DNA from: Verrucomicrobiota bacterium
Lineage (GTDB): Bacteria > Verrucomicrobiota > Verrucomicrobiia > Verrucomicrobiales > Verrucomicrobiaceae
Length of the DNA stretch: 64,000 nt
Reading direction: 5' to 3'
Assembly: GCA_025360015.1 (NCBI GenBank)
Contig: JANYCZ010000068.1
Coordinates: 248,001 to 312,000, forward strand
Every line of letters starts with the position of its first letter. Position 1 is the stretch's first letter. The position numbers were made by a program, and so were the translations under genes. Under the pieces are notes generated by a model. That model saw only the letters and a program-made list of their open reading frames with translations, was not told the DNA's origin and did not search any database. Positions 30,581-56,669 of this stretch are shown piece by piece.

Positions 30581-33500
30581 CTAGCGTCCTGGAGGGTTCA
30601 CTTCCTTCACCGTCGCGCCGTGCGTTTCGCTGAGAATGAGGAGGGCGAGTTTTTCGACGTTGTGCAGTTCGGCGGGCTTGAGCATCTGGTAGTCGAGGCC
30701 GTTGGCGGGAGCGGCTTCGTAGGGGGTGGGTTGCGGCATTCCATTTTCAGGGCCGTTGAGACTGGCGTAGTCAAAGCGGCCACGCAGGTCGGTGTAGCCA
30801 TCCTTGAAGAAGCGTACGGTGCCGTTGTTGAGGCGTGCGTACACTTTAATGTAGGCCTTCGGCAGCGGCTTGTCGGTGGTGGCGTCGCGGGTTTCGAGGC
30901 GGCCGTAGTTTTCCGCCACCGTCAGCTTCAAGGTGTTGGCATGATAGGCCTGGGTCTTGCGCTGTCCGGCACCGAGCACTTCCACAAGTACGTTGGCCTT
31001 CGTGAATTCCGCAGGCAGCGCGAGGTCGAGTGTGGTCTGATTTTTCGGCAGTGCCTGCGTGGCCGTTTTGTTCGGCTTGATGATGCTGAAGCGTCCGGCA
31101 TCTTGGCTCACGAAAGGATTGCTGCTGAAGCTGAACTCGGGGTCCATGAGGTAGTAGTTCAGCGTGACTTCGCCCAGGTTTTTCCAAGTGAGGGCGATGG
31201 TCTTGTTTTCGACTTTGAACTCAAAGCCCGGCTCGCTTGCTGCGAGTTCAGCCTGCTGCTTCTCGCGGTCGGGCTTGTCGCCTTTTTCTGTCTTCGCAGC
31301 CGTGCCTTCGATTTCCTCAAGCTGGGTGGCCACCCCGGCAAAGAGGAGCTTCCAGCGTGGCACCGGATGATCTGCATACTTGGCTGCCAGACCGCGTGCG
31401 GCGGCGAGATCGCCTTCATAAAAGGCGGCGTAGCACTGGAAGTAGTCGTGTTGGATCTTCGTGGGCAGCTTGGTGGCGTCGATGGACTTGAAGCGGGCCA
31501 GCGCCTCCTCCACCCGGTCCTGCAGGAAGAGGAAGGAAGCTACGCTCAGGTTGTCGATGGCGTCGAGCTGCGGCTTGTGAGCGAGGATGCTTAGCAGGTG
31601 AGTGTACTGCTCCAGCACCGCCGGATTGGCGATGCGCCACTCGCTGCCGACGCGGTGCGCACGTTGATTGACGAGGGGGAAGTATTCGAGATGCTCGTAG
31701 CTGCGGCGTTCGATGGGATCGAGCGTGAGGAGTTTGCTGGCGGAATACGGGCCGCATTCATTGTCGAATTTTTCTTTCAACCACTCACGCAGCGTGGCGG
31801 CATCATTGTGCAGCAGCGCGTAGGTGGCGATGGCTTCATCATTAAGGTGATGCGTGTGCATGAAGGCGATGAGCTTCCGGTAGAAGTCCACGCTCTGACG
31901 ACAGCGCCAGGCGACGCGATCCAGATTGACAGTTTGGAGATTGGTTTGCTCCAGGAAGGTGAAGACCTCCGCATCGCTGCCGTATTGCGACACATAATCC
32001 CATGAGGCCTTGTCCACCTCGGTGAGTTTCGGCACGACGTTGAATCCAAACGGTTTGGCGCCTGCCGCGCTGGTGCTGGTGGCGACGTTGACGGGGAAGT
32101 GGGCAAACTTGAGGCCGGGCTTGGCTGGAACGAGCGGGAAGTAGAAGTGATACTCGAAGGTCTGCGTGGTGTAGGGTTCCAGGCGGATCTGGCGTGAGTT
32201 GGTGGCCTTGCTGCCAAGCACGGGCAGTGCGCCTTGCGGAATTTGCAGCAGCACCACGGCCTTCACCGGGCTGCTGGTGGGATTGGTGACGACGATGTTT
32301 GCGCCATAGGTCGCGCCGGTGAGGAACTCGCTGGTCACATACTTCTCGAATTTCTCGTTTCCTTCCATGCGGTAGCGGTCGCTTTGACGGAAGAAGCTTT
32401 GTGAGACGAGGAGCTGACCCTGCGTGTTGTTTTCAACGGCGGCAGGTTTGATCTCTTTGTGATATAGGATGCAGGGGCCGCCTGCAGTGAAGGTGAAACG
32501 GCCGTTGTCGGCCTTGGTGCCGTGCTTTGGAGCGTCAAAGGGAAGATCCAGCACGGCGAGCGCAAGCATCATCTCGGTGAAGTTGCTGCTGGCCTCGGCG
32601 ACGTTGCTGGAAACAAAGCCACCCTTTGAACCTGAGGCGATCCAGGCGGCATAGTCACGCCAGAAAGCGTTCACGGTAACGAGATCGGCACTCTGTTCAG
32701 TGATGCGCAGTTTGTAGTAGTTGTTCTCCGCCCATTCTTTTGTGGGGCCGAGGGCGCGGAAGAAGACGCGGACTTCTTTGCGGGCGTCTGTGGCATCTCC
32801 TGTGCCGAAATAGAGGTAGCCGCCACTGACGGTCATCGCCCCGGCAGAGGTATTGGCACCGCTGAACGCCCAGCGATCCGTGCCCGATTTTTGAAAGGCG
32901 TCCTGGCGCTGAAGGCCGAGCGCCGTCATCTCCTGGGGCTTCGCATCTTTCTGACCTGGGAGCTGTTGCAACTCAGCGGCGGTCATGGAGCGACGTAGGG
33001 TGCTTGCTGGGGAGTTGTTTTCCCCTCCCGCCATGCCCATCCCTTTGGAAAATCCTCCCCTGGGATCAGGCGCATCTGCATAGGCTGCAGGGGCGGGAGA
33101 CATCGGCGATGGTGGCGGCGCGGCGGCAGCTTGATTTTTTGCTGCTTCCAAGACTCCACCAGCCGTTCTGTCTCCAGATTCCATCGTCCGCCCACGGAGA
33201 GCCGTTTCAAAGAGGTGGTCGGCTTCTTCAGGATTCGGAGGGATCATTTCAAACAGTTCGCGGACATGGCGAGCGGTATTTGGCGCTTCGTTTTTGATGC
33301 GCTGCGCGAGCAGGATGCGCTCGACGATGTTGAGACGAGCATAGGCCCAGGGTTCGAGGTGTGGGGTGAGATCGAGGCCGAGGAGATACTCGTCCATGAA
33401 GGTCTTGTCCTTCTTGTTGGCGAGGTAGGGTTTCACCACGGCATCGAAGAACGCCTTGTCTTTGCGGGAGAGGAAGAAGTTCAGTTCGTGACAGGCGAAC

Positions 33501-36500
33501 TCGCCGTATTTGGCGTGCTTCTCGTCGTCTTTGAGCTTGGGCCAGTGCAACAACCACGCGAATTCTGTGAGGTGGCCATCGCTGCTGAGCGTGGTGAACA
33601 GGGAGTGGATGCCGCCGAGGGTGTCGTAGGTTTCGAGTTCGCTGGTGAGGATGTCGGCGAGGGTTAGGGCCTTGCCGGTTTCGAGGACGGTGATTTCTTT
33701 TTTCTGTGTGAAGGGCGTCGCGGGATCAAGATTCCGCGCGAGGCGCTGATCGGCGAATTTGGTGGGGGCTTCCGGCAGCGTGAGCGTGCGCCAAGAGGCG
33801 TTTTGCAGGTCTTCGGCGTAAATTTGCACATGTTGGCGGTCGCCGAGGGCTTTGCGTTCGATGCGGACGACCCCGTCTTTGTCGGGCACGAGGTTGTAGA
33901 TGACGGGGGCGGATGCAGCGAGGAAGTCGAGATTGGTGCCGCCTTGCGGACCGGCTTGGGCTTTCATCTTCTTTGCGGGCATCATGCCGGCAGTGTTCGA
34001 AGTGCCGGTGGCCCCACCGCGTGTCATGGTCGCATTTTGACCGCCAGCTTGAGCGAGTTCGTCGAGATCGGTGCTGCTAATCTCCCATGGATTCAGCAGC
34101 AGGCCGGGACGGGTGAGCATGTTGCCGGGGAAGAGTTTGGCGTAGCGGCGTTCGAGGATGTAGCGGTACTCATCTCCGATTTCACGGCCAGCGGAGTAGA
34201 GGTTCGGGTTTCTCGCTGGCGCGCCGGACGCTGCGCCGAAGCGAGTGAAGCCGCCGAGCCCACCGAAGATGCCGTTGCCGGGATCGAAACGCGAGGCGGC
34301 GAAGTGGACGCGGGCGAAGGGACTGCTGTTGGCGAGTTTGACGGTGATGAAGTCCTTGTCGTTCTCGATGCTTGTGATGTGGAGCGGTGAATTGCCTTTG
34401 AGTTCGAGCTGGCGGTGCTTGCCCAGCACCCAGCCACCGAAGGTTTCGCCTTGCGTCACTTTGAGAGTGATGAGCGGCTGGCCGGGGATTTGCAGTGAGT
34501 AGTCGCCGGGTGTGAGACCGCTGATGGTGAGAAAGCCGTTTTCAGTTTTGAGGAGGGCCGCAAGGTCTGCGGTGAAGGTGCCGGAGGTTTGCGCTAGGAG
34601 TGATGCAGGCAGGCTGACGGCGGGATGAGCGGGAATCCGAATCGTCTCGCCCTCCTTGGCGTGGATGGTGGTGGAGAGCGTGTTGTCAGCATCCTCCAGC
34701 GGCCAGAGTGTTTGCCGGCCATTGGGGATTTTGGCGGCGACGGATTCGATGCTGGCGAGGTTGCCGAGATTCACGCGGCCTTGGGCGTCGGTGCGCAGCG
34801 GGACGATCTGGGAGCGATTGAACTCGCGATGCTTAAAGGTGAACAGTACTTGCTGGTCGGCGATGGGTTCGCCATTTTTTCCGAGGAGTTCGAAAACGCG
34901 CTGGCCGTCAAAAGTACTGAGGTGCCCGTCGTTCACGGCTTCGGTCTTGTCGATGCCGTTGATCGTCCAGGTGTGGCTGGCCGTGAGATCTTTTTTGGTC
35001 CCACCGGTGCTGAGAGCTTCCACTTTGGCACTGAAGGTCACGGTGAGCGAGGCGAGGCGCTCGGGGACGGTGAGCGTCTGTGTGAGGTCGCTGCCGGCTC
35101 TGAGTTTGAGGTCTTGGATTTCGCGAGTGGTGGAGATGCCGTCAAGCGTGGTGCTGGTGATGGTGAGCTTCGGTTCACTGAGGAGTTCGGGGGCGAGGTG
35201 CGCCTCACCCATCATCAAGGCGGTGCGCACGGCGAGGGTTGCCTCGCGGCGGGAGAGAAGCTGCTCACGTTCGATGTGGAACTGCGCGTCCAGTCGGTAG
35301 TCCTCGGCATGGTGGGCTATGGAGGTGAGCGTGGCAAAGGTGCCTGCAGCATCCCCGATGATGAGGTTCTTGGTGCCTGGCTGACTCGTGAACGGTACGA
35401 CGATGCGTCCGAGCTTTTCGTTGCGCAGCAGCTTGCGGCCTTCAAACCATGCCACAGCATCATTCACCGGCTGGTTCTTTTCGTCGAGGACGAGGATCAG
35501 ATCTCCGCTGGGACCCGTCTGCTGAAGCACATGCAACTGGCCGGTGCGGATGAGGGCGCGGCTGCTGCGGCCACCGCCGATGAACTCGATGATCCAAGCG
35601 CCGCGTTTGCCTTTGAGTTCGGGGAACTTGAAGGTCTGCCGCTTGCGTGTGAAGGGGCCGCCCTCAAAGGCGTGGGTCTGCTCGCTGTTGGCCACGAGGC
35701 CATCGAGGTTGAGATCGGTGTTGAGCTGGCGCTGCTGGGTCTGGAAAAAATTGAGCGTGTTCAGCTCGAAGATCTTCACGATGAGCTTCGGCGTGTTTTT
35801 GACGGTGACGTCGAACTGGATGTCGTCACGGGGCGTGAACTGCGGAGCATTCGTGGCGGGGAATTCAATATCGACGCGCTCTTTGAGCTTTTGAAATGCG
35901 GCGGGTGTGAGCAGCGAGGCCCAGTGTTCGGGACTGCCGATGCCGTTCGTTATCAGCGCCTCCGCCAGGACGGGCGTGAGCCATTCTTCGGCAATGTAGC
36001 TGGTCCACTGTGAGAGCACGTCGTTGGGATCAGCATCGGGCTTTACCTCGGAGGCCAAGAGATGCAGGAAATACTCGCGGACGAGCGGCTCGTCGGTGCT
36101 GATGGGCGGGGAAAGCAGCAGGGCCTCGCTGAGGTCGGCGCTGAGATCGGAGATGTCGCCCGGCCTGACGTCCTTGATATAGCTATAGTTGATGTAGCCC
36201 TGCTGGCGGGGGAGCTTGATGTATTCCATGAAACGGCTGCGGTCATACATGCCCTGCTTGCGATCGTGGTCGAGACGCAGGTAAAGGATGCGGGCCTTGA
36301 GCGTGTTTTGGGAGGACGGCAATTTTTTGGCGAAGGCCCACACGCGATCCAGCCAGGCCGCGCGCTCGGCGTCATCGTATTCCAGATTCACATCCGCGTT
36401 AGGGGCGAGCTTGCGGAGGCGGGTGTTCACGAAGGCCTGCTGGCCGAGCCATTGGGGGTAGGTTTGCAGCAGGGCATCCAGTTGCTCCGGCAGCAGGGCG

Positions 36501-37132
36501 CGATGGATAGGCAGGGAGCCGAAGGTGCGGGATTTGTCGGCCTGAAGGTCGGCGAGGATGGCCTGGACGAGATTTGGCACGTCGGGGCGCTGGAGTTTGC
36601 TGAGCACGCTGCGGCGCTGATCGGGTGAAAGCGGCACCTGGTCACGAATCAGGGAGGAGAGAGCCTCCTGGGAGAGGGATTCAAGGCCGCGGTCTTTGTT
36701 CAGCGCATCATGGAGAAAAACCTCGCGGCTGATTTTGGCGGGATCGAGCTGCGTGGGGAGGTCGGGCTTTTGGTCACGCACCTCCCGCTGGTGGTCGTGA
36801 CGAATGCCGAGACGCTCAATGAGGTACTTCAGCGTGGCCTGGGGATCACGCTCGTAGTCCAGAAGGGCCTCACGATTGAGAATGATGCGCCGGGCTTCGT
36901 TTTCGTTGGGGACACGTTCACGCCACTGATTGAGTATTTGATCAAGCTTCGCGTTGTCGCGGACGTTTTGATAGTGGAGGGAGTGGAAGAAATAGTACTC
37001 CTCCGAGCCAGGAACGAGCTCGCCGAGGGCCTTTTCACGGTCTGCGGCGAGGGCAAAGCGCTCGATGAAGCCGATTTCATTGTCGGCATGAGCCGCGAGA
37101 GGGAGAAGGAGGGCAAGGACGAGCGATTTCAT
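30581..37132 (-). CDS. Giant exported protein of unknown function (2183 residues)
   Basis: I do not recognise this as a named family. The signal peptide is clear (MKSLVLALLLPLAAHA). Residues about 17-450 are helical and TPR-like, with many Leu/Arg repeats. About 460-1050 alternates beta-sandwich-like segments (FTPRDDIQFDVTVKNTPKLI, LILVLDEKNQPVNDAVAWFE, TLTVPERLASLTVTFSAKVE), recalling MG/MG2 domains of alpha-2-macroglobulins, but I find no CxEQ thioester. A Gly-rich and then a Pro/Ala-rich linker (near 1030 and 1390) separate a helical part. Near the C-terminus LETRDATTDKPLPKAYIKV looks like a carboxypeptidase-regulatory-like Ig module. A periplasmic or surface A2M-like scaffold is my best guess. 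It probably heads an operon with the MBL gene. Confidence 0.85.
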   Translation of the reverse strand: MKSLVLALLLPLAAHADNEIGFIERFALAADREKALGELVPGSEEYYFFHSLHYQNVRDNAKLDQILNQWRERVPNENEARRIILNREALLDYERDPQATLKYLIERLGIRHDHQREVRDQKPDLPTQLDPAKISREVFLHDALNKDRGLESLSQEALSSLIRDQVPLSPDQRRSVLSKLQRPDVPNLVQAILADLQADKSRTFGSLPIHRALLPEQLDALLQTYPQWLGQQAFVNTRLRKLAPNADVNLEYDDAERAAWLDRVWAFAKKLPSSQNTLKARILYLRLDHDRKQGMYDRSRFMEYIKLPRQQGYINYSYIKDVRPGDISDLSADLSEALLLSPPISTDEPLVREYFLHLLASEVKPDADPNDVLSQWTSYIAEEWLTPVLAEALITNGIGSPEHWASLLTPAAFQKLKERVDIEFPATNAPQFTPRDDIQFDVTVKNTPKLIVKIFELNTLNFFQTQQRQLNTDLNLDGLVANSEQTHAFEGGPFTRKRQTFKFPELKGKRGAWIIEFIGGGRSSRALIRTGQLHVLQQTGPSGDLILVLDEKNQPVNDAVAWFEGRKLLRNEKLGRIVVPFTSQPGTKNLIIGDAAGTFATLTSIAHHAEDYRLDAQFHIEREQLLSRREATLAVRTALMMGEAHLAPELLSEPKLTITSTTLDGISTTREIQDLKLRAGSDLTQTLTVPERLASLTVTFSAKVEALSTGGTKKDLTASHTWTINGIDKTEAVNDGHLSTFDGQRVFELLGKNGEPIADQQVLFTFKHREFNRSQIVPLRTDAQGRVNLGNLASIESVAAKIPNGRQTLWPLEDADNTLSTTIHAKEGETIRIPAHPAVSLPASLLAQTSGTFTADLAALLKTENGFLTISGLTPGDYSLQIPGQPLITLKVTQGETFGGWVLGKHRQLELKGNSPLHITSIENDKDFITVKLANSSPFARVHFAASRFDPGNGIFGGLGGFTRFGAASGAPARNPNLYSAGREIGDEYRYILERRYAKLFPGNMLTRPGLLLNPWEISSTDLDELAQAGGQNATMTRGGATGTSNTAGMMPAKKMKAQAGPQGGTNLDFLAASAPVIYNLVPDKDGVVRIERKALGDRQHVQIYAEDLQNASWRTLTLPEAPTKFADQRLARNLDPATPFTQKKEITVLETGKALTLADILTSELETYDTLGGIHSLFTTLSSDGHLTEFAWLLHWPKLKDDEKHAKYGEFACHELNFFLSRKDKAFFDAVVKPYLANKKDKTFMDEYLLGLDLTPHLEPWAYARLNIVERILLAQRIKNEAPNTARHVRELFEMIPPNPEEADHLFETALRGRTMESGDRTAGGVLEAAKNQAAAAPPPSPMSPAPAAYADAPDPRGGFSKGMGMAGGENNSPASTLRRSMTAAELQQLPGQKDAKPQEMTALGLQRQDAFQKSGTDRWAFSGANTSAGAMTVSGGYLYFGTGDATDARKEVRVFFRALGPTKEWAENNYYKLRITEQSADLVTVNAFWRDYAAWIASGSKGGFVSSNVAEASSNFTEMMLALAVLDLPFDAPKHGTKADNGRFTFTAGGPCILYHKEIKPAAVENNTQGQLLVSQSFFRQSDRYRMEGNEKFEKYVTSEFLTGATYGANIVVTNPTSSPVKAVVLLQIPQGALPVLGSKATNSRQIRLEPYTTQTFEYHFYFPLVPAKPGLKFAHFPVNVATSTSAAGAKPFGFNVVPKLTEVDKASWDYVSQYGSDAEVFTFLEQTNLQTVNLDRVAWRCRQSVDFYRKLIAFMHTHHLNDEAIATYALLHNDAATLREWLKEKFDNECGPYSASKLLTLDPIERRSYEHLEYFPLVNQRAHRVGSEWRIANPAVLEQYTHLLSILAHKPQLDAIDNLSVASFLFLQDRVEEALARFKSIDATKLPTKIQHDYFQCYAAFYEGDLAAARGLAAKYADHPVPRWKLLFAGVATQLEEIEGTAAKTEKGDKPDREKQQAELAASEPGFEFKVENKTIALTWKNLGEVTLNYYLMDPEFSFSSNPFVSQDAGRFSIIKPNKTATQALPKNQTTLDLALPAEFTKANVLVEVLGAGQRKTQAYHANTLKLTVAENYGRLETRDATTDKPLPKAYIKVYARLNNGTVRFFKDGYTDLRGRFDYASLNGPENGMPQPTPYEAAPANGLDYQMLKPAELHNVEKLALLILSETHGATVKEVNPPGR

Positions 37133-37303
37133 GGCCGGAGGCGGGGTTGGAGTGGATGATGCGGCGAGCATCACGGCTGAGGCGAGCTTTTATTGTAAAG
37201 ACTCTGTCAATCAGCTGGCAGGGGAGGGGAGACCGGCCAAAAAACCGTTTGAAACCCAGGGGGGGGGGACTACTATCTCCGCCCTTTACTTTCCCAGATC
37301 CCC

Positions 37304-50765: not shown

Positions 50766-51815
50766 TCAGATGTTCAGCAGGCCTGCGGTGGCCTCAAAGC
50801 CGCAGATGAGGTTCATGTTTTGCACCGCCTGGCCAGAGGCGCCTTTGCCGATGTTGTCCTCAGTGCTCATCAGGATGAGCTGTCCCGCGCGGGCGTCATA
50901 GGACCAGCCGATGTCCACGAAGTTGGTGCCGGTGACATGTTTGGTATCGGGTGACTGGTTCACCCCGAGCAAACGCACGAACGGGGCGGAATCGTAGGCT
51001 GAATGCAAGGCGGCGCTGATTTGTTCAATCGTCACGCCTGGCTGCAACTGCGCGAAAGTCGTCGTGCAGATGCCCGAATGCGTCGGCATGAGGTGCGGCA
51101 CAAACGAAAGCTTCACCTCCCGACCGGCGGCGAGCGCGAGTTCCTGACCGATTTCGCTCAGGTGCCGGTGCAGCGGCACGCTGTAGCTGCGCACGCTGTT
51201 TTGCACCTCGCAGAAGAGCAGGGAGATGCTTTCTTTGCGGCCCGCACCGCTGGCACCGCTCATGCTGGCCACGGCGAGAGGCGACTCCGCCAGCAGGCCC
51301 GCTTTCAGCAGCGGAATGAGCGGCAGCAGAATGCTGGTGGGGTAGCAGCCCGGGCAGGCGATGAGCCGTGCGGTCTTGATCTGCTCCTCACGCAATTCCG
51401 GCAGCGCATAGACAGCTTCATCCAGCAGTTCAGGCGCAGGGTGCGCGTGGCCGTAGAATTCTTCGTACAGCGCCGGACTCCGCAGGCGGAAATCGGCGCT
51501 GAGGTCGATCACCTTGAGGCCAAGCTCCAGCAGCGGCTTCGCATATTCGGCGGAAACCCCGTGTGGCAGCGCCAGAAAGGCGATCTCTGCACCAGCGGCT
51601 TTCAAGGCGGCGGCGTCAGGCGCGGTGAAGGTCAGCGAATCGGCCACGCCGACGCTGCGGAAGCGTGGGAACTCCTTGGAGAGCGCTTTTCCCGCCAGTG
51701 ACCGCGAAGTCACCGCCACCAGTTCCACGTTCGGGTGCCGTAGCAGCAGGCGCAGCAATTCGGCTCCAGAGTAACCACTGGCTCCAACGACGGCGACTTT
51801 GACGGGTGCGGACAT
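50766..51815 (-). CDS. argC: N-acetyl-gamma-glutamyl-phosphate reductase
   Basis: A 349-residue NADPH-dependent reductase, first gene of the operon. The Rossmann start KVAVVGASGYSGAELLRLL (GxSGxxG), VIDLSADFRL, and the catalytic cysteine in LIACPGCYPTS (Cys157) define ArgC. FVPHLMPTHSGI closes the active site. Start ATG 51815 is chosen at the Rossmann fold; upstream frame to 51857 would run through the promoter. The divergent neighbour is the ClpX-like gene. Confidence 0.97.
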   Translation of the reverse strand: MSAPVKVAVVGASGYSGAELLRLLLRHPNVELVAVTSRSLAGKALSKEFPRFRSVGVADSLTFTAPDAAALKAAGAEIAFLALPHGVSAEYAKPLLELGLKVIDLSADFRLRSPALYEEFYGHAHPAPELLDEAVYALPELREEQIKTARLIACPGCYPTSILLPLIPLLKAGLLAESPLAVASMSGASGAGRKESISLLFCEVQNSVRSYSVPLHRHLSEIGQELALAAGREVKLSFVPHLMPTHSGICTTTFAQLQPGVTIEQISAALHSAYDSAPFVRLLGVNQSPDTKHVTGTNFVDIGWSYDARAGQLILMSTEDNIGKGASGQAVQNMNLICGFEATAGLLNI

Positions 51816-51829
51816 AATGCGGGGGGCGG

Positions 51830-51857
51830 AGTATGGGATGTCATGGGGGCCGTGCAA
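51830..51857 (-). promoter_or_regulatory. Putative promoter of the arg operon
   Basis: On the minus strand TTGCAC (51852-51857), a 16-nt spacer and CATACT (51830-51835) lie 14 bases upstream of the argC ATG, giving a very short leader. No ARG-box palindrome is obvious in the 132-base divergent region. Confidence 0.4.
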
Positions 51858-51905
51858 CCCTGAAAAAGAGCATTTCTTGCCGGATCACAGCACGCATCGT
51901 GCCGC

Positions 51906-51934
51906 TTGTCAGCGGGCCTCGCCTCGCACACTAT
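51906..51934 (+). promoter_or_regulatory. Putative promoter of the ClpX-like gene
   Basis: TTGTCA (51906-51911), a 17-nt spacer and CACTAT (51929-51934) fit sigma-70 spacing. The ATG at 51948 is only 13 bases after the -10 box, so the message would be nearly leaderless. Confidence 0.5.
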
Positions 51935-51947
51935 TCCCGCCCCCCTC

Positions 51948-53630
51948 ATGAGCGATCCCACGCCAGAACTCCCAGAGCCAGAAAAACCCAAAGCGCCCGG
52001 AAGCCCGGAAGAGATCACACGCAAACTGGAGGACTTCATCAAAAACACGCTGGGTGGCCAGGTGCTGTTCACCCGCGTCGAGGGGCCTGGGGGGCGTCGC
52101 CTGCCTGACGGAGAGGAAAGACCCGTCGAAGATGCCAAACCCGACAATGGCAGAGTTTTCGAATTCAACTACCGCCCGGCTGACATCAAAGCACATCTAG
52201 ACCGGTTTGTGATCCGGCAGGACGAGGCCAAAAAAGTGCTTGCCACTGCGGTGTGTGATCATTACCACCACGCCCAGATGCTGCGCGATGACCGTGAGTC
52301 GGACTCCGGCGGGCCGAAGCTCGAATTCTCGAAACAGAATGTCATCATCATCGGCCCCACGGGAGTCGGGAAGACCTATCTCGTCAAACACATCGCCGAT
52401 CTTATAGGTGTGCCGTTTGTGAAGGCGGATGCGACAAAATTCAGCGAAACCGGCTACGTCGGCGCGGACGTTGATGATCTGGTCCGCGACCTCGTGGCAA
52501 AGGCCAATGGCGACATCGAACTGGCCGAGCATGGCATCATCTATCTGGATGAAATCGACAAGCTCAGCAGCGGCCCCGAACGACTGGGGCGGGACGTGAG
52601 CGGGCGCGGCGTGCAGACCACCCTGCTGAAATTGATGGAGGAAACCGAAGTGGCACTCTACGCACCGAACGACATCCGCAGCCAGATGCAGATGATGTTC
52701 GACACCCGCAAAGGCCGCACCGGCCGCGAGGTGGTGAACACGCGCAACATTCTCTTCATTGTCAGCGGCGCCTTCGGCGGGCTGGAAAAGATCATCGAAA
52801 AGCGCACGAACCGGAAATCCATCGGCTTCGTTTCGTCGGACACGAAAACGACCGCCGCCGAGTATCTGTTCCGTGAAGCACGCACGAAGGATTTCATCGA
52901 CTACGGTTTCGAGGCCGAATTCATCGGCCGCCTGCCTGTGCGTGTCGTCTGTGATCCGCTGAGTGCGGACGACATGTTCCAGATCATGAAAAATTCCGAA
53001 GGCAGCCTCATCCGCCAGTATGAGCGTGAGTTCGCCGCCTATGGGGTCAAAGCCACCTTCAAGGATGACGCCTTGCGTGAGATCGCGACCCGTGCTGAGG
53101 AAGAAAAGACCGGTGCGCGCGGTCTCGTCACCGCCTGGGAGCGGGTGCTGCGTGATTTTAAATTCGAAATGCCCAGCCTCGGTCTGCCCGAACTGCTGAT
53201 CGACGGCGCGCTCGTCAAAGAGCCGGAGCAGGCGCTCACCCAGTGTCGCGCCGAAGCCGTCAGCCAGTTTAGGGAGCTCGGTGCCGCGCATGCCGGTGAG
53301 GTCAGGGCCTTTGCGGAGCGTTTCCAGCGCGAGCATGGTTTCCTGCTCGACTTTGACAGCGAAGCCATCGCCGCCGTGGCTGCACGGGCTCAGCGCGAAG
53401 GGCTGCATGTGGAGGCCATGTGCACGAAACTCTTCAAAGATTATTCCTTTGGCCTCAAGCTCGTGACACGCAGCACTGGAGCGACGAGATTTGTCATTAC
53501 CACCGACGCGGTTGCCAATCCCGACAAGTACGTCAGTGAACTCGTCGTGAACGCCTGTCGTGGCCAGCCCGAGCCGCCGGTTTCCAACATCATCGATCTC
53601 ACCCCTGACACTCCCGCCCATGAATCGTAA
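51948..53630 (+). CDS. ClpX-like AAA+ unfoldase lacking the zinc-binding domain
   Basis: A 560-residue ATPase. The AAA+ core matches ClpX: Walker A GPTGVGKT (136-143), pore loop GYVG (169-172), Walker B IIYLDEIDK (197-205), RDVSGRGVQTTLLKLMEET (215-233), and sensor 2 GARGL (389-393). The ClpP-docking IGF tripeptide is kept (292-294, RKSIGFVSS). The C4 zinc finger of true ClpX is absent; residues 1-70 are instead acidic, Pro-rich and probably flexible. The RKH pore loop is altered (RKGRTG, 254-259). A C-terminal extension of about 130 residues (430-560) has no ClpX counterpart. A dedicated ClpP partner with different adaptors is plausible. The next gene overlaps its end by 11 bases. Confidence 0.85.
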   Translation: MSDPTPELPEPEKPKAPGSPEEITRKLEDFIKNTLGGQVLFTRVEGPGGRRLPDGEERPVEDAKPDNGRVFEFNYRPADIKAHLDRFVIRQDEAKKVLATAVCDHYHHAQMLRDDRESDSGGPKLEFSKQNVIIIGPTGVGKTYLVKHIADLIGVPFVKADATKFSETGYVGADVDDLVRDLVAKANGDIELAEHGIIYLDEIDKLSSGPERLGRDVSGRGVQTTLLKLMEETEVALYAPNDIRSQMQMMFDTRKGRTGREVVNTRNILFIVSGAFGGLEKIIEKRTNRKSIGFVSSDTKTTAAEYLFREARTKDFIDYGFEAEFIGRLPVRVVCDPLSADDMFQIMKNSEGSLIRQYEREFAAYGVKATFKDDALREIATRAEEEKTGARGLVTAWERVLRDFKFEMPSLGLPELLIDGALVKEPEQALTQCRAEAVSQFRELGAAHAGEVRAFAERFQREHGFLLDFDSEAIAAVAARAQREGLHVEAMCTKLFKDYSFGLKLVTRSTGATRFVITTDAVANPDKYVSELVVNACRGQPEPPVSNIIDLTPDTPAHES

Positions 53631-54906
53631 TCATGCCGCCGCCATGTTCATTGGCGTGCTCGTCTGCATCCCACTGCTGGCCTTGTACCATTTTGGCTAT
53701 TTCAAAGGCACCGCTGAATGGTTTGCCGTGCTGTTTGCGCGCGGGTTCATTTTGCCGGCCGGTGGGTTGAAGCAGGTCGTTTTGCTGCAATACGGCTACT
53801 ACACTGTCATGGCGTTTATGAGCGCCTGGGTGTGCATTGAGATGCCCTCGCAGTGGCGGCGTCTTGCATTTCTGCTGGGCGGCACTTTTCTCACCATCAC
53901 CTTTGCCTGCATCATGGCCATGAGCGGCGTTTTGTTTGAGCCCATCTCCGGCTCACTGGCGTTGTGGTTCGCGGGCATCGCCGGCATTGCTGTCGGTGGC
54001 TCGGTGAATGGGTATCGCTGCCATGTCATGCGTGATTACTTTGTGGGCCGGCTTTCCACGCGCCTGTTTGAAGAACTCGCAGATCAAAACAATCCCGCAA
54101 AAATGACGGAGCGCCGGGAGATCACCGTGCTGACCTGCCGCCTGCTGAATCATGGCGAGCTTTCCACGGGCATCGAGGCACCGCAGTTCGAGGAACTGGC
54201 CACTCACTTCCAGCGCAGCATTTCAGAATTTCTCATCGCCCGCGGTGCTTATCTGGATGACTGCACCGCTCGGCAGGTGCGCGTCTTCTTTGGTTTCCCG
54301 CTGTCAGACGAGCACCACGCTCTGCATGCCGTGCAGGTGGCTGCGGTGCTGCGCACGCATGTTGCCACGCTGGCCCGTGAGATCGAGCAGCGCTTCGGCA
54401 AGAAGGCGCAGATCGGCGTGGCATTCAGCACCGGCCCGGCGGTCTGCGGGCTGTTTGGGGTCAGTCACTTTGAAAGCTTCAGCGCGGTCGGGGACGTGAT
54501 CGATTTTGCTGCGCAGCTTTGTGTCTTGAACGCCGAGTATGGCAGCAAGGTGCTCCTCAGCGCGAGAACCTATGCGCTGGTGAAGGACACTGCCGAGGTC
54601 AGGCCGATGGAGATGGTCAGCACCGCCGGCTCCAGTCAGATGAGCGAGGTGTATGAACTTCTCGGTGAGAAAGGTGCGCTGCCAGAGGCGGACATCCGCG
54701 CGCGTGACGCCTTCTGGCAGGGAGTGGTGCAGTATCGCAAAGGCGATCTGAAGCAGGCGCTGGAAAGCTTCAGCAATGCCGCCACTGAAAGCCGTGAGGA
54801 TGCGCCGCTGAAATACTTCATGGAGCGCGTCGAACTGGGTCTCAAAGAGAAATCATCGCCTGCCAAGGAGACACCCAAACATTCCCGCAAACTCGCCGCG
54901 ACCTGA
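53620..54906 (+). CDS. Membrane protein with degenerate class III adenylate cyclase domain
   Basis: A 428-residue protein. Four hydrophobic helices (about 8-28, 51-74, 82-102, 111-129) precede a class III nucleotide cyclase-like domain (about 163-325) and a short TPR-like tail (about 355-415). The domain follows the family pattern but lacks key residues. The first metal Asp of the usual FxDI strand is Arg174 (EITVLTCRLL). The second, in the usual GD-A turn, is Arg218 (LDDCTARQVRVFFGFP). The NxxxR near GDVID is altered (GDVIDFAAQL, 291-300). It should not make cAMP and may be a receptor or dimer partner. Its start codon lies inside the end of the ClpX-like gene, indicating translational coupling. 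Confidence 0.8.
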   Translation: MNRNHAAAMFIGVLVCIPLLALYHFGYFKGTAEWFAVLFARGFILPAGGLKQVVLLQYGYYTVMAFMSAWVCIEMPSQWRRLAFLLGGTFLTITFACIMAMSGVLFEPISGSLALWFAGIAGIAVGGSVNGYRCHVMRDYFVGRLSTRLFEELADQNNPAKMTERREITVLTCRLLNHGELSTGIEAPQFEELATHFQRSISEFLIARGAYLDDCTARQVRVFFGFPLSDEHHALHAVQVAAVLRTHVATLAREIEQRFGKKAQIGVAFSTGPAVCGLFGVSHFESFSAVGDVIDFAAQLCVLNAEYGSKVLLSARTYALVKDTAEVRPMEMVSTAGSSQMSEVYELLGEKGALPEADIRARDAFWQGVVQYRKGDLKQALESFSNAATESREDAPLKYFMERVELGLKEKSSPAKETPKHSRKLAAT

Positions 54907-54917
54907 GTTTTTCTGCC

Positions 54918-55526
54918 GTGCGCATTGACTATCCACCTGCGATCCAGCGTCTCGTCGCCCAGCTCAAATCGCTGCCCGGTCTAGGACCACGCAGCGCGGA
55001 GCGCCTCATGATCTGGCTGCTGCAGCGGAGTGATGAGCGCCTCACCACGCTTTCCAACGCGCTGCTGGAGGCCAGGGAACGCATCGTCTCCTGCGGCGAC
55101 TGCGGATTTTTCATTGAAAGCGACAGCAACTGCCTGCTCTGCCATGACCCGCGCCGCCAGCAGCAGCAACTCTGCGTTGTCGAGCAGGCTGCGGACGTGC
55201 TGCGCATGGAGCGCTCAGGAGCGTTTCAAGGATTGTATCATGTGCTGGGCGGTCGGCTCTCGCCGCTCGACAACGTGACACCCGAAGACCTGCGCATGGA
55301 GTCATTGGTCACTCGTGTGCGTGATCTGCATACGGAAGAGGTCATCATTGCCCTCGGGTCCGATGTCGAAGGCGAAGCGACCGCCAGCTACATCGCCGAT
55401 CTGCTGCGCCCGGCGGGCATTGCTGTCACCCGGCTGGCCCAGGGCATGCCTGCGGGCGGGGGACTGGATCACGTGGACGAACTCACCCTGTACCAGGCGC
55501 TGCACGGGCGGCGGAAGATGGGATAG
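54918..55526 (+). CDS. recR: Recombination protein RecR
   Basis: A 202-residue DNA-gap repair protein that works with RecF and RecO to load RecA. The HhH region LKSLPGLGPRSAERL, the zinc finger CGDCGFFIESDSNCLLC, and the Toprim domain (LCVVEQAADVLRMERS ... IIALGSDVEGEATASYI) are complete. The start is a GTG at 54918, 11 bases after the stop of the pseudo-cyclase gene, so it may share that transcript. Commonly recR sits with dnaX and ybaB; neither is here. Confidence 0.97.
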   Translation: MRIDYPPAIQRLVAQLKSLPGLGPRSAERLMIWLLQRSDERLTTLSNALLEARERIVSCGDCGFFIESDSNCLLCHDPRRQQQQLCVVEQAADVLRMERSGAFQGLYHVLGGRLSPLDNVTPEDLRMESLVTRVRDLHTEEVIIALGSDVEGEATASYIADLLRPAGIAVTRLAQGMPAGGGLDHVDELTLYQALHGRRKMG

Positions 55527-55570
55527 TTTTTCCTCGACAGCAGGTGCTGTTTCACCCAAAGGGAGCCTCC

Positions 55571-56296
55571 ATGGACTACCACATCGCCCGTAATGGACAG
55601 CAGCTTGGCGTTTTTTCCGAAGCGGAAATGCAGCCGGGGATCTCAACAGGGCGTTTTTTGCCCGACGATCTATTTTGGGCGGAAGGCATGCCGGATTGGC
55701 AGCCTTTGAATTCCCGCTTCGCTGTTGCGGTGGCGCCGCCGGTTTTTTCATCTGCCGCTGCGGCCGCTGGATCATTTAATCCCTATGCCGCGCCGCTGAC
55801 CAATGTTGTGTCTTCTGCCATGCTGCCACAGCTCAATCTCGCATCGCGTGGAGTGCGCCTGGGGGCGAGATTGCTGGACGGGTTCATCGTGCTGGCGGTG
55901 ATGGCTTTGCCGACGATTCCGGGTTTCGTTGCGATCGCACAGGCGGATAGTGCGGGGAAACTGGAAAATGACTTCCCGGTTTATGCGATGTATTGGTTTG
56001 GTGCGGCGTTCCTGGCTTCTTGTGGACTGCTGGTGTGGAATGCCATGTGGCTGGCACAGCATGGCCAGACGATTGGCAAGCGCATGCTCGGCATCCGTGT
56101 CGTGCGCTTCCCCAGCGGGCTGCCTGCCGGCGCTGCCAAGGCTTTCTGGCTGCGCGCCGTGGTGAACTTCGTTATCAGCAATATTGTCCCGCTGTATGGC
56201 ATCGTTGACGCCTGTTTCATTTTCAGTGAGAACAAGCGATGTGTTCATGACTTGATCGCGGAGACCACGGTCGTCGTGGCTGATGACGTCAAGTGA
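55571..56296 (+). CDS. GYF_2-RDD family membrane protein
   Basis: A 241-residue protein. The N-terminal GYF_2 module (about 2-47) reads YHIARNGQQLGVFSEAEM ... DLFWAEGMPDWQPL. An Ala-rich linker follows. The RDD domain (about 92-235) starts with the Arg in LASRGVRLGARLLDGFIV, has three helices (about 104-125, 138-160, 195-215), and the HGQTIGKRMLGIRVVR motif. RDD proteins are small integral membrane proteins, some proposed as Na+/H+ transporters; the GYF_2 fusion is common in Planctomycetes/Verrucomicrobia. Start ATG 55571 is preceded by GGGAG at 55560-55564. Confidence 0.85.
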   Translation: MDYHIARNGQQLGVFSEAEMQPGISTGRFLPDDLFWAEGMPDWQPLNSRFAVAVAPPVFSSAAAAAGSFNPYAAPLTNVVSSAMLPQLNLASRGVRLGARLLDGFIVLAVMALPTIPGFVAIAQADSAGKLENDFPVYAMYWFGAAFLASCGLLVWNAMWLAQHGQTIGKRMLGIRVVRFPSGLPAGAAKAFWLRAVVNFVISNIVPLYGIVDACFIFSENKRCVHDLIAETTVVVADDVK

Positions 56297-56297
56297 G

Positions 56298-56669
56298 TTA
56301 CTCCAGCCCCAGCGCCGCCACCTCGTCTTCATCCAGCCCGAGGTAATGCCCCAGCTCGTGCAGAAACGTGATCCGCACTTCGTGGCGGTAGGTGGCGAGA
56401 TCACCAGCGCATTCGTCCCAGAGGTTGTCCAGGAAAAGGCGGATCCGCGGCATTTCATCGGGGGACTCCGGCAGGGGATCGCAGCGGGCGTTGCCTTCAA
56501 ACAGGCCGAGCAGATCGGGGTCAAGATCCTCATCAATATCGACCAAGGCATCCATCTCGGTTAACTCAATGCGGCAGTCTCCTGCCTCACTGCGAATTTC
56601 GGTTGGCAATGAAAGCAGCGTGTCTTTGACGACACGGGTGGCGATGGTGAGAAGGCGTGGAAAGCGCAT
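56298..56669 (-). CDS. Zincin-like metallopeptidase family protein
   Basis: A 123-residue protein of the short Zincin_1 (DUF1025) group. The metal motif HELGHYLGLDEDE (HExxHxxGxxE) is complete near the C-terminus, preceded by IRLFLDNLWDECAG and EVRITFLHELGH. No signal peptide. The function of this family is not established. It lies directly downstream of the M1 aminopeptidase (6 bases), so both are probably on one transcript. Confidence 0.9.
   Translation of the reverse strand: MRFPRLLTIATRVVKDTLLSLPTEIRSEAGDCRIELTEMDALVDIDEDLDPDLLGLFEGNARCDPLPESPDEMPRIRLFLDNLWDECAGDLATYRHEVRITFLHELGHYLGLDEDEVAALGLE

Follow-up and report, generated by a model that had tools for sequence, protein, structure and literature searches.

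The window analysed here (the whole stretch of 64,000 nucleotides) carries on its + strand a gene for a ClpX-derived AAA+ unfoldase, which we call ClpX2 (gene A), followed by a gene for a membrane pseudo-cyclase (gene B) and by recR, with the features given below. Motif counts are based on an alignment of 166 ClpX2 loci, comprising 156 distinct sequences.

51948-53630, + strand: ClpX2 (gene A), ClpX-derived AAA+ unfoldase of 560 aa without a zinc-binding domain (reading frame and family searches)
52353-52376, + strand: Walker A motif, GPTGVGKT, identical in 164/166 ClpX2 loci
52452-52463, + strand: pore-1 loop, GYVG in 163/166 loci and GY[IM]G in the other three
52545-52553, + strand: Walker B motif, hydrophobic-Asp-Glu, [ILVM]DE in 166/166 loci
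52659-52733, + strand: loop in place of the ClpX RKH substrate loop (28 ClpX2 loci aligned with the genome's own canonical ClpX)
52821-52829, + strand: IGF motif of a putative ClpP-docking loop, [ILVM]GF in 166/166 loci and 156/156 distinct sequences, and in 0/8 of the short paralogue
52953-53237, + strand: first small AAA+ domain with sensor-2 GAR (PF10431 match at 338-403; model)
53238-53567, + strand: second, duplicated small AAA+ domain (hhalign against the first copy; model)
53620-53630, + strand: overlap of ClpX2 and gene B, 11 bases
53620-54906, + strand: gene B, membrane pseudo-cyclase of 428 aa (reading frame, profiles and model)
53620-54042, + strand: four-helix membrane domain of B, part retained in short B (model)
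54106-54672, + strand: class III cyclase-fold domain of B without the catalytic residues, whose positions hold R174, R218, D295 and Q299 (residue comparison and Foldseek)
54682-54855, + strand: helical tail of B, resembling that of a CHASE2-type cyclase (hhalign with L203; model)
54918-55526, + strand: recR, probably the operon's third gene (TIGR00615 match in its own genome)

The 11-base overlap of the first two genes, from the ATG of B at 53620 to the end of the ClpX2 stop codon at 53630, had been recognized in a first-pass annotation and is confirmed. Of the 20 ClpX2 loci in the genus, 16 have an ATG at exactly this overlap, the remaining four being L012 (+73), L016 (+5), L019 (+4) and L014, to which no value could be assigned. 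This recurrence, together with 4-base ClpX2/B overlaps in other genera and families (L062, L067 and L068), indicates that the arrangement is not due to chance. The annotation had also given the two genes their own promoter, for which we found no counterpart: a sigma-70 consensus scan of positions 51500-56300 returned two sites against 1.1 expected, none of them upstream of 51948, and the + strand site (53605-53634) spans the ClpX2/B junction. Transcription would nevertheless start upstream of 51948, given that the gene 5' of ClpX2 (argC by inspection) is divergent. Since recR starts just 11 bases 3' of B and no terminator-like site was found at either the ClpX2/B or the B/recR junction, the three genes probably share one message. 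Thus, the adjacency of the two genes claimed earlier holds but the extent of the unit probably does not, a probable third gene having been omitted. Elsewhere in the window, an unassigned reading frame of 2197 aa lies on the - strand (30581-37174).

ClpX2 and its short paralogue

Profile matches and fold bear out the earlier assignment of the first gene to the AAA+ unfoldases, the fold of ClpX2 being that of ClpX. With ClpX (TIGR00382 and NF003745) it has in common the AAA+ core, Walker motifs, GYVG, arginine finger, sensor-2 and IGF loop, so that the motor set (Walker A, Walker B, pore-1, arginine finger GR and sensor-2 GAR) is retained. Unlike ClpX, it has no zinc-binding domain and no RKH loop, bears a duplicated small domain and misses both curated cut-offs (335.1 bits for a cut-off of 359, and 313.4 for one of 370.75); it also falls below that of the HslU model (186.4 bits; cut-off 362.45). 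A canonical ClpX with a zinc finger, 40% identical to ClpX2, is encoded elsewhere in the genome and provides its sole zf-C4_ClpX match, with none in ClpX2. A scan of 167 proteins for a Cys4 pattern before Walker A found none, and alignment with the genome's own canonical ClpX showed the RKH loop to be replaced in all 28 ClpX2 loci so compared. In a tree of 63 rows, built with every third distinct ClpX2, the three canonical ClpX rows stand apart from ClpX2 (100/100). ClpX2 is under purifying selection, with a median dN/dS of 0.072 (36 pairs, nine genomes).

Residues 431-540 of ClpX2 duplicate the small AAA+ domain: compared with the first copy, they gave an hhalign probability of 98.6% (E 1e-15), with seven control segments at 0.3% or less, and helices and strands follow one another in the same sequence in both domains of the model (mean pLDDT 79.6). 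The possibility that this C-terminal part is an unrelated new domain is ruled out by the same match.

Within the putative docking loop, the G and F of [ILVM]GF have zero entropy and most neighbouring positions vary at about 2-3.8 bits (PMC9035409 describes what the IGF and RKH loops do). ClpP is matched over its full length once in the genome (264 bits), and a second match, of 29.9 bits, is above cut-off and covers 57 of 182 positions. Most likely, ClpX2 would dock on this one clear ClpP via the conserved [I/V/L/M]GF loop, and it would feed ClpP with substrates that ordinary ClpX does not choose; we propose different substrates because ClpX2 has lost the zinc domain and RKH loop and gained a further small domain.

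A shorter paralogue forms a single group inside ClpX2 in the tree (100/100; L213 on a long branch) and has neither the IGF motif nor a second small domain in any of the eight loci examined (L117, L118, L211, L212, L213, L214, L216 and L217), whose frames are of 378-446 aa except for L118, longer via an upstream start. It sometimes shares a genome with full ClpX2 (G068, G216, G228 and G089), and from its motifs it is likely to be a ClpP-independent unfoldase.

Several ClpX copies in one bacterium are already known, as PMC11423568 reports for Myxococcus xanthus, where ClpX3 is a divergent copy located away from the clpP1-clpX1 operon, beside an ordinary ClpX, and its deletion weakens growth at high temperature. 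There, ClpX3 is described as being without the N-terminal domain and RKH motif, as is ClpX2, a likeness drawn by description only (PMC11423568).

Gene B, a membrane pseudo-cyclase

The product of gene B matched no Pfam family at its cut-off, with PF00211 unmatched at E up to 1. Its AlphaFold model (mean pLDDT 86.1) places membrane helices at residues 3-24, 54-74, 78-101 and 108-126, in agreement with the four-helix membrane protein of the first-pass annotation, and Foldseek related the domain that follows to class III cyclases (6fht, 3r5g and 2w01; E 2e-13 to solved cyclases). In that domain R174 and R218 replace the two metal Asp, and D295 and Q299 replace the Asn/Arg pair. Comparison of 36 B rows (34 distinct, with two duplicates) revealed the first metal Asp in nine and the second in six, and both together in none; of the VNxAxR motif, Asn is present in 0 of the 34 rows that have a residue at its position, and Arg in 25. 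The catalytic set is lost and, judged by these residues, the cyclase domain of B is dead, as the earlier description of a dead nucleotide-sensor domain had it. That B might still be catalytically active as a nucleotide cyclase, using unusual residues, for which the class III fold and the purifying selection on B (see below) could be adduced, is therefore scarcely credible, and we reject it because the catalytic set is incomplete in every row compared.

As to its origin, we compared the B profile with L203, a CHASE2-type cyclase of the same genome. The two aligned at 99.2% probability in hhalign (B columns 82-409 with 374-716 of L203) and colinearly over 328 columns that include the last two membrane helices, the cyclase domain and the tail, the first two helices being uncovered. 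B thus resembles CHASE2-type adenylate/guanylate cyclases in having these last two helices, cyclase fold and helical tail in the same order, but differs from them in that the CHASE2 sensor (PF05226), present in L203, is unmatched in B, the catalytic set is incomplete and some forms have no cyclase fold. From this colinear alignment, B is most likely descended from a CHASE2-type cyclase, with both sensor and catalysis lost.

Within the genus, median dN/dS (36 pairs, nine genomes) is 0.074 for B and 0.059 for the pseudo-cyclase domain, which is hence not decaying there. The domain is nonetheless absent from B in eight of 26 loci of the order, all in relatives of the genus; short B is 133-189 aa in seven of these, the eighth being L014, whose start could not be placed, and it is the membrane domain that the eight loci keep. 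Short four-helix proteins also occupy the position of B in L060 (E 3e-10 to the B profile) and in L151, itself a row of that profile. The dead cyclase, which strong purifying selection maintains in one group and which another group within the genus has lost, clearly exemplifies the conversion of a signalling enzyme into a membrane protein with a different use.

Distribution, linkage and interpretation

In the order, ClpX2 is present in 28 of 37 relatives, where it was separated from canonical ClpX by score (at least 489 against at most 232.5 bits), and B lies directly downstream in 26 of the 28 loci (two of the 26, in G028 and G030, being weak profile matches with E 1e-13 and 7e-12). The two without an adjoining B are G025, where B is elsewhere beside recR, and G034, where the contig ends. 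Across the class, the ClpX2 profile matched in 107 of 236 genomes (E <= 1e-105, at most six candidates scored per genome), extending beyond the AAA+ part in 95; the 95 count G184, which is split over two contigs, and the partial G168, but not the 12 genomes with the AAA+ part only. In the phylum it matched in 76 of 288 genomes, and among the best 80 of at least 448 relatives, named genomes with a ClpX2 locus extend to Poribacteria and Omnitrophota. The other loci fetched (from other Verrucomicrobiota, Poribacteria and Omnitrophota) have different neighbours, and B was not found next to ClpX2 in them. B-linked ClpX2 falls in one group of the tree (97/89), along with rows that have no adjoining B, such as L088, L126, L127 and L135. 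Adjacency in this genome only, which the first-pass annotation had named as refuting its idea, can be discarded in view of these loci of the order and of adjacency in several families of the class.

To assess linkage in the class, 41 genomes with long B were picked by hand among the matches listed, as those reaching the membrane domain in a frame of no more than 501 aa; outside the 41 are a 508-aa frame in G102, short-frame matches from about position 107 on, CHASE2-sized frames and short B. Full-length ClpX2 is present in 23 of them and is adjacent to B on the same strand in 21, the two exceptions being G127 (near, inverted) and G092 (on another contig). In 72 of the 95 ClpX2 genomes of the class, there is no long B among the matches listed. 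recR follows B on the same strand in at least 26 of the 41, and in 11 of these no full-length ClpX2 was found at E <= 1e-105 with at most six candidates per genome. Nor did tblastn around B reveal a ClpX2 remnant in four genomes without full-length ClpX2 (G151, G160, G188 and G264), of which G188 has a short ClpX2 paralogue. B and recR also adjoin in G014, G025, G026 and G033 of the order, with a 4-base overlap in G026 and G033 and one in G025 that hinges on the recR start codon. By locus, B lies directly upstream of recR in L206, L207, L208 and L119, with ClpX2 absent or elsewhere, and the two genes overlap by 4 bases in L206 and L207 and, depending on the recR start codon, in L208. In G068, G236 and G254, ClpX2 and B are together with recR on another contig. 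Five long-B genomes have no recR near B but have it placed elsewhere, and for seven of the 41 recR has no placement; among these seven, G178 has no recR match among the matches listed, and G104 and G221 have recR beside B in the neighbourhood view. Unlike B, recR is nearly universal (at least 220 of 236 class genomes). These counts indicate that the ClpX2-B and B-recR links are both real and both breakable. ClpX2 and B each occur without the other, so the pair is not obligate.

We consider it somewhat better than an even chance that ClpX2 is an alternative ClpP-docking unfoldase with its own substrates, and B a membrane pseudo-cyclase that is loosely coupled to it and probably co-expressed with recR too. 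In one Verrucomicrobiia clade, the ClpX2 gene would have come to precede B and recR, making the three probably co-expressed neighbours, with a functional link and contacts between their products possible, and ClpX2 and B would be separately dispensable rather than an obligate two-protein machine. Against such loose coupling counts the ClpX2-B linkage, which at 21 of 23 genomes is stronger than expected of unrelated neighbours. Membrane-tethered proteolysis, the idea of the first-pass annotation, in which B would serve as receptor or adaptor in recruiting ClpX2 and ClpP to the membrane, with the dead cyclase as a ligand-sensing or dimerising module, is possible but unlikely, though by no means negligible. 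The overlapping genes, the order conserved in several families and the membrane domain being what remains in the eight short-B loci all fit tethering; against it count the 72 of 95 ClpX2 genomes of the class without long B and the 11 genomes that have B-recR with no full-length ClpX2 found. Moreover, an N-terminal helix stretch in the consensus of the 47-row ClpX2 alignment is held although most rows have no adjoining B, which argues against its being a B-specific docking site. The cyclase-like adaptor PopA has a degenerate GGDEF domain, not a class III one, and is not a four-helix membrane protein, and we know of no instance in which PopA, RcdA or CpdR shares an operon with ClpX. It offers a precedent all the same, in that PopA of Caulobacter, according to PMC7526171, must bind c-di-GMP to deliver CtrA to ClpXP, and among the ClpXP adaptors PopA, RcdA and CpdR a cyclic-nucleotide-binding adaptor thus aids substrate delivery.

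If B instead works with RecR, anchoring recombination repair at the membrane or regulating it, and ClpX2 is separable or incidental in the operon, then the B-recR adjacency in at least 26 of 41 genomes, including the 11 in which full-length ClpX2 was not found, and the adjacencies and 4-base overlaps in the order would be accounted for; B staying by ClpX2 in three genomes with recR on another contig, and the near universality of recR, make this quite improbable. We give still less credence to ClpX2 as a ClpP-independent remodeller that has merely inherited its IGF motif: the eight motif-less paralogues show that ClpP-free work is possible in the clade, but the motif is kept by every distinct ClpX2 within an otherwise variable loop. 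On a par with it, and similarly doubtful, is a bolder proposal, of a second ClpXP machine in Verrucomicrobiota and relatives, built on a two-small-domain ClpX, held at the membrane in one class by a sensor-less pseudo-cyclase and acting on co-encoded recombination or repair proteins (RecR). On this view ClpX2 would require its extra small domain solely for work with ClpP, as the nested paralogue lacks both that domain and the docking motif. As for the obligate membrane-tethered, nucleotide-controlled protease suggested in the first-pass annotation, the distribution does not show one, given that recR is a probable third gene, ClpX2 is more widespread than the pair, 11 of the 41 long-B genomes have B-recR with no full-length ClpX2 found and the cyclase is missing in eight of 26 loci of the order.

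Its further statement that no system with this pair had been described agrees with our search of the open-access literature, in whose listings we saw no description of the duplicated small domain, of a second Verrucomicrobia ClpX clade, of a ClpX2-B-recR operon or of a comparable pseudo-cyclase. Many Verrucomicrobia carry this second, unusual ClpX. So widespread a paralogue, its small domain duplicated and its putative ClpP-docking loop conserved throughout, implies that in many Verrucomicrobiota one ClpP may serve two ClpXP machines, of which one would have no zinc domain of the usual kind. With neither docking motif nor extra domain, the nested paralogue provides a natural test of the role of that domain.

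Some loci depart from these patterns. A good B match is accompanied by neither a full-length ClpX2 found nor an adjoining recR in G156, G174, G226, G250 and G178, and recR directly follows ClpX2, with B missing, in L088 and L126, from a 0.9 Mb genome (G052) and a Verrucomicrobiales MAG. ClpX2 also occurs in assemblies labelled Bacteroidetes, Myxococcota and Acidobacteria (L166, L177 and L183), through transfer or mis-binning, and G017 (77% complete) has two ClpX2-B copies, on C6 and C425, possibly an effect of assembly or strain mixture.
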